From Alphaproteobacteria bacterium (lineage in GTDB: Bacteria > Pseudomonadota > Alphaproteobacteria > WRAU01 > Hepatincolaceae): DNA of 42,964 bases. This document shows, piece after piece, positions 1 through 342 of this stretch. The notes under the pieces are model-generated. The model had not been told where the DNA came from. It did not search any database and saw only the letters and a program-made list of their open reading frames with translations. Location: positions 1 through 42,964 of the forward strand of contig CANHGT010000003.1 in NCBI GenBank assembly GCA_947460385.1, written 5' to 3'. Positions within the stretch are counted from its first letter, which is position 1; every line of letters begins with the position of its first letter. The position numbers and the translations under genes were made by a program.

Positions 1-134
1 GGTGCATTAAAAGAGCTTAACCAAAAGGTGTTGTTAGAGGATAGTTCCAAAAGGAGATGTGCTACAGGATAAATTGACATCTTTAATTAGTGCAGACAGT
101 TAGAGGATAGTTCCAAAAGGAGATGTGCTACAGG
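1..134 (+). CRISPR. Trailing end of a type II CRISPR array (36-bp repeats, 30-bp spacers)
   Basis: Two identical 36-bp repeats lie at 33-68 and 99-134; each starts GTTAGAGG and ends GTGCTACAGG. They are exactly 66 bp apart, leaving a 30-bp spacer at 69-98. The window opens with GG, the last two bases of another repeat at the same 66-bp period, so 3-32 is a second 30-bp spacer. A 36+30 unit is typical of type II arrays. The partial anti-repeat just downstream at 265-297 fixes both the type and the strand: crRNAs would be read rightwards, so this is the leader-distal end. No cas gene lies in the window; cas9, cas1 and cas2 are expected to the left or elsewhere. I cannot name the spacer targets. 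The two bases AT after both repeats are probably a coincidence. Confidence 0.88.
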
Positions 135-254: not shown

Positions 255-342
255 AGTTTCATCTATGTAGCACAACTCCTTTTGGAATGCCTCTTAATAA
301 AAGAAATTGCAAAATAAAAAGGGGGATAAAAACCCCTTTTAT
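255..342 (+). ncRNA. tracrRNA for the type II CRISPR system
   Basis: Bases 265-297 are an imperfect reverse complement of the CRISPR repeat. The upper duplex pairs the repeat segment TTCCAAAAGGAG perfectly, has one A/A mismatch, then pairs TGTGCTAC. A bulge follows (ATAG in the repeat opposite two bases here), then a short lower stem pairing GAGG with CCTC. Bulged duplexes of this kind are what Cas9 systems use. The 3' tail (298-315) is short and AT-rich, with no obvious strong nexus hairpin, and ends in the terminator at 316-342. Transcription must be rightward, the same strand as the crRNAs. The 5' end is not known: I see no convincing promoter between the upstream terminator and 262, so the start given is approximate. 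Confidence 0.83.
316..342 (+). terminator. Rho-independent terminator of the tracrRNA
   Basis: The stem AAAAGGGG (317-324) pairs with CCCCTTTT (333-340) across an eight-base loop, with T-rich sequence after it. It lies about 20 bases past the anti-repeat, where tracrRNAs normally end, and gives the transcript its direction. Confidence 0.8.

Follow-up and report, generated by a model that had tools for sequence, protein, structure and literature searches.

The window analyzed here, a stretch of 42,964 nucleotides, is contig C3 of a 1.09 Mb genome in 66 contigs (92% completeness, 29.7% GC), and it opens within a CRISPR array. Two identical copies of a 36-bp repeat, GTTAGAGGATAGTTCCAAAAGGAGATGTGCTACAGG (hereafter R1), are located at 33-68 (+) and 99-134 (+) with a spacing of 66 bp; the latter is the last repeat of the array and has the same sequence as the other copies. 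At this spacing, the GG with which the window starts (1-2, +) closes a further repeat, which leaves spacers of 30 bp at 3-32 (+) and 69-98 (+). The original prediction had claimed the identical repeats, their spacing, the repeat end at the window start, and the spacer length, all of which were confirmed. CRISPR arrays are recognized as identical direct repeats of 21-48 bp with unique spacers of similar size between them. The R1 array has this organization, with 7 full repeats of 36 bp and 7 different spacers of 29-30 bp over two contigs (the single 29-bp spacer is on contig C31).

The array was also predicted to run off the left edge of the window, and more copies of R1 are indeed found on C31. 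Elsewhere in the genome, R1 occurs only at the end of this contig, as five full copies (C31:58-357, -) and a partial copy of 28 nt that is cut by the contig end (C31:1-28). When the window was shuffled 100 times by dinucleotides, no match to R1 at 3 or fewer mismatches arose. The confinement of the 36-mer to the array on C3 and C31, together with the shuffles, rules out a scattered, dispersed repeat or chance as the origin of R1. Palindromic repeats of ~60-69 bp around GACACGCAAGTTGC..GCAACT, arranged head-to-tail, are also present in this genome and are not CRISPR; this family is found at the ends of contigs C1, C6, C11, C36, C47, C50, C52, and C59, and appears to break the assembly. Tandem repeats of 60 bp, probably coding, are found on C26 and C37, reaching the contig end on C37 and lying near one on C26.

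C31 ends with bases 1-28 of the repeat and C3 with the last two, in compatible orientations. Because both contig ends lie inside R1, C31 and C3 most likely adjoin across an assembly gap, and the most likely order of the locus is a compact cas9, a promoter, the array, and a tracrRNA, continuous across the break. It is highly improbable that the two contigs carry separate arrays that share a repeat, with the window array and tracrRNA not physically beside the compact cas9. Separate arrays would allow for the lack of a bridging sequence and of an overlap between the contig ends, but both contigs break inside a repeat in compatible orientation, and the cas9 and promoter are found on one side with the tracrRNA on the other. 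Moreover, the anti-repeat would serve R1 in either case.

Directly upstream of the array on C31 is an intact open reading frame of 921 amino acids (C31:401-3166, -) that encodes a compact Cas9; its stop codon is 43 bp from the first repeat. The protein scores 159.7 bits with the TIGR01865 Cas9 model (cut-off 100) and 36 bits with HNH_4, also above the cut-off. In an alignment with ordinary Cas9s, all of its catalytic positions are kept: Asp17 (the RuvC-I aspartate), Glu423 (the RuvC-II glutamate), His510 and Asn531 (the HNH histidine and asparagine), and His660 and Asp663, which form the RuvC-III HxxD motif. Also retained is RGFKSN, a motif that follows the bridge helix. Residues 291-372 align to 243-536 of the II-C Cas9 encoded on contig C25, so that the recognition (REC) lobe is ~210 residues shorter than in the II-C Cas9, and a second deletion removes ~85 residues between RuvC-III and the C-terminal domain. 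Structure models reached pLDDT values of 50 (compact Cas9) and 37 and were not used as evidence. Type II systems are defined by a Cas9 with RuvC and HNH motifs next to an array, and by a tracrRNA with an anti-repeat. The R1 array has such a Cas9 beside it, and an orphan array in a genome free of cas9 is thereby ruled out. The claim of a Cas9-type locus holds, since the C31 array, the remainder of the R1 array, lies directly behind an intact 921-aa Cas9. The search for cas9, cas1, and cas2 that the original prediction proposed succeeded for cas9 beside the array; cas1 and cas2 are found on C25 instead, and neither was seen next to the array in the window or among the open reading frames on C31. 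No csn2 or cas4 was recognized near the compact cas9 from a reading of the open reading frames.

The anti-repeat claimed downstream of the array is real, and lies at 266-287 (+), where 21 of 22 positions are complementary to R1. Extended to 266-294 (+), it is predicted to pair with R1 in a long upper stem, a small bulge, and a 5-bp lower stem, arranged as in the dual RNAs of type II systems. With the full R1, this segment has a duplex energy of -42.1 kcal/mol, ahead of all others among the 48,412 windows taken from the genome outside the array, where the runner-up reaches -36.0. This lead is gone when only the 5′ 27 nt of R1 are used (-26.9 vs. -26.8 for the next window), so the case for the anti-repeat rests partly on its position and orientation. 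A tail (295-345, +) follows, which ends with a hairpin resembling an intrinsic terminator (317-340). The anti-repeat and terminator thus form a candidate tracrRNA of the kind expected for type II systems; Rfam gave no match in positions 1-800 of the window. Between the array and the tracrRNA is an A+T-rich inverted repeat (177-245, +) with 26-nt arms (177-202 and 220-245) that are 85% complementary, possibly the end of the array transcript. On the other side of the array, a promoter (TTGACA-17-TAAATT; C31 386-358, -) ends one base ahead of the first repeat. Promoter-like sites in this region are not above chance in number, and it is therefore the position of the promoter that counts. Being on the cas9 side of the first repeat, it implies transcription from cas9 through the array into the window.

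The genome contains a second system, an ordinary and complete II-C one, with cas9 (1198 aa), cas1, and cas2 on C25 (L010:11673-16736) and an array of 24 repeats (R2) at C22:17430-18983. A candidate degenerate repeat behind the C25 cas2 was rejected: right after this gene lie, on the minus strand, an anti-repeat to R2 and a terminator hairpin, which belong to the II-C tracrRNA candidate. R2 ends in TGCTATAAT, possibly a promoter inside each repeat. R1 does not have this end and is preceded by a promoter instead. Spacer 7 of the C22 array matches C34:8360-8389 with one mismatch, and the surrounding genes resemble a type IV secretion/conjugation region; from this gene content, the probable target of the II-C array is a mobile element of which the genome itself has a copy. 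All arrays in the genome have 36-bp repeats and ~30-bp spacers. R1 and R2 have the same base at 18 of 36 positions, most of them at the two ends (shuffle p 0.002, post hoc). The R1 and II-C tracrRNA candidates are too short and A+T-rich for an alignment between them to support an argument. The resident II-C system thus resembles the R1 locus in its 36/30 array, its anti-repeat with a single terminator hairpin, its repeat ends, and the grouping of the two Cas9s in trees (see below), and differs from it in the size of its Cas9, which is 30% identical to the compact Cas9 over the best segment, and in its repeat and tracrRNA.

Over long segments, no Cas9 that was found exceeds ~30% identity to the compact Cas9, and the best matches come from many different phyla. 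No close relatives were found among genome contigs, viral contigs, plasmids, phages, 385 genomes of the class, or 399 of the phylum, where matches were confined to low-identity segments, in most cases 22-40% and short; PHROGs gave no match. The negatives of the whole-genome search are weak, as it missed the 26% match to the Cas9 of a genome of the same family (G003) that blastp detected. The alphaproteobacterial affiliation in the original prediction fits, in that another genome of the class (G709) has a Cas9 nearly identical to that of Thalassospira. In trees from two sets of alignment columns, the compact Cas9 joins the C25 Cas9 and the G003 Cas9 (99/96 and 99/97), on a terminal branch of 3.4-4.8 changes per column and with a biased composition. 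The long branch and odd composition make this placement unsure. The tree grouping and the similarity of the R1 and R2 ends together favor, without certainty, an origin within the II-C lineage that this family of bacteria carries. Judged from these comparisons, the compact Cas9 is most likely a fast-diverged, shortened effector of that lineage and a paralogue of the resident enzyme. The alternative, that it is not a paralogue and represents an independently acquired, deeply divergent Cas9 that works alike, is unlikely, though it has a real chance of being correct. Independent acquisition would agree with the low identity to any Cas9 found and with the spread of the best matches over phyla, with an earlier, larger quick tree (72 rows) in which the compact Cas9 was unresolved at the root, and with three relatives of the same family and order, in each of which a single large Cas9 (1274-1365 aa) occurs and a compact one is absent. 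Against it stand the two more careful trees and the likeness of R1 and R2 at the repeat ends.

The stretch in the window is therefore read, with good though not full confidence, as the distal end of a II-C-like locus with a diverged, shortened Cas9, its own array and tracrRNA, and adaptation in trans. In its evolution, an ancestral II-C Cas9 would have diverged fast and lost the ~210 REC residues and the further ~85, while its own repeat and tracrRNA were kept. Given the sequence evidence for the array, the Cas9 homology, the catalytic residues, the anti-repeat, the terminator, and a second cas9 locus with cas1/cas2, the R1 locus may be expected to transcribe, process its dual RNA, and cleave DNA by analogy with other type II systems. 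The array would be transcribed from the TTGACA-17-TAAATT promoter, from the cas9 side toward the window, and the repeats of the pre-crRNA would pair with a tracrRNA extending from window position 266 to about 345. The crRNA:tracrRNA duplex would then be trimmed, a step performed by RNase III in the type II systems known so far. Guided by this dual RNA, the 921-aa Cas9 would cut matching invading DNA at the RuvC and HNH sites. The R1 array would likely receive new spacers in trans, from the Cas1-Cas2 encoded in the C25 II-C locus, the only cas1/cas2 pair in the genome, which lies beside a cas9 whose array shares the 36/30 geometry.

A relic, in which the shortened Cas9 and the frozen array have lost both cutting and spacer acquisition, is an improbable reading of the same features. 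The absence of cas1/cas2 beside the compact cas9, the loss of ~300 residues, and the very long branch would be in keeping with decay, as would the spacers for which no target was found. Alignment of the window spacers (3-32 and 69-98) to phage, plasmid, and self sequences, as proposed in the original prediction, was run and yielded no target, nor did the R1 spacers as a whole match phages, plasmids, viral contigs, or the genome itself. When the 3′ cores of the spacers were compared with viral contigs, five had no exact match and one had chance hits only; matches of 18 nt to spacer A5 were rejected as a target because they do not extend. Missing spacer targets are common where the phages of an organism are little sampled. 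The relic reading is opposed by a frame that stays open over 921 codons in a genome of 29.7% GC with each catalytic residue present, by seven identical full repeats, the last one included, and by an intact promoter, anti-repeat, and terminator. An open frame and intact active sites after such divergence argue for selection and against decay.

A third CRISPR array is located on contig C2 (C2:30619-30784), with three 36-bp repeats, the first of which is degenerate, and 30-bp spacers. Its repeat is palindromic, forming a 14-bp hairpin (z -4.3), and no anti-repeat to it was found in the genome. Beside it is an open reading frame of 602 amino acids (C2:30896-32704, L115:10896-12704, -) with R-X4-H motifs at two positions only, 253 and 483, 230 residues apart; the chance of two or more such motifs is ~5%. 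The protein was not recognized in library, PDB, or PHROGs searches, and no relatives were found. Cas13an proteins are 429-577 aa in length, and in the one that has been characterized the R-X4-H motifs are 236 residues apart; their genes stand alone beside arrays, with type II cas1/cas2 in trans in 4 of 10 host genomes (PMC12165695). The C2 array and the 602-aa protein, a candidate HEPN effector, may therefore be a compact Cas13an-like system. C2:22861-28521, near this array, encodes proteins resembling a phage portal and a large terminase, and is probably a prophage remnant. That a genome of 1.1 Mb would combine three class 2 effectors, namely the ordinary Cas9 of the II-C system, its shortened paralogue, and a compact Cas13an-like HEPN protein, each with its own 36/30 array and all served by one Cas1-Cas2, is put forward tentatively and is doubtful as a whole.

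The short piece of array at the edge of the contig, unremarkable by itself, belongs to a very divergent, shortened Cas9 with a separate repeat and tracrRNA, in a genome that already bears a II-C system. Should the adaptation module be shared, the two systems would offer a natural test of how far a Cas9, its guide RNA, and its repeat can diverge and still work with one Cas1-Cas2. Cas9s smaller than 921 aa are already known; nevertheless, this enzyme and its short tracrRNA may interest those who search for compact nucleases.

Among known systems, subtype II-D loci, which encode the small Cas9d proteins, contain cas1, cas2, and cas4 (PMC12669027). The R1 locus shares the small Cas9 with II-D; however, no cas1, cas2, or cas4 was recognized among the open reading frames beside its cas9, and the compact Cas9 does not match the NCBIfam Cas9d model (NF049971). 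With type II-C, it shares the Cas9 family, 36-bp repeats, 30-bp spacers, a cognate tracrRNA with terminator, and the lack of any recognized csn2 or cas4 nearby. On the other hand, II-C loci have cas1 and cas2 in the operon, and the R1 locus has neither, which makes it a II-C-like effector locus and not a complete II-C locus; its Cas9, at 921 aa, is also very divergent. Acquisition in trans is known from Flavobacterium columnare, where a VI-B locus that lacks cas1/cas2 gains spacers via the II-C Cas1, and the VI-B and II-C repeats are both 36 bp with sequences only partly similar (PMC8092290). The arrangement here is alike in having an effector and array without cas1/cas2, a II-C adaptation module in the genome, and repeats of equal length. 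The dependent effector is a Cas13b in F. columnare and a second Cas9 here, and the dependence was established by experiment there and is a likely one here. The R1 locus is best seen as a variant of the II-C kind of type II, in which the effector is shortened and strongly diverged and adaptation genes are missing.
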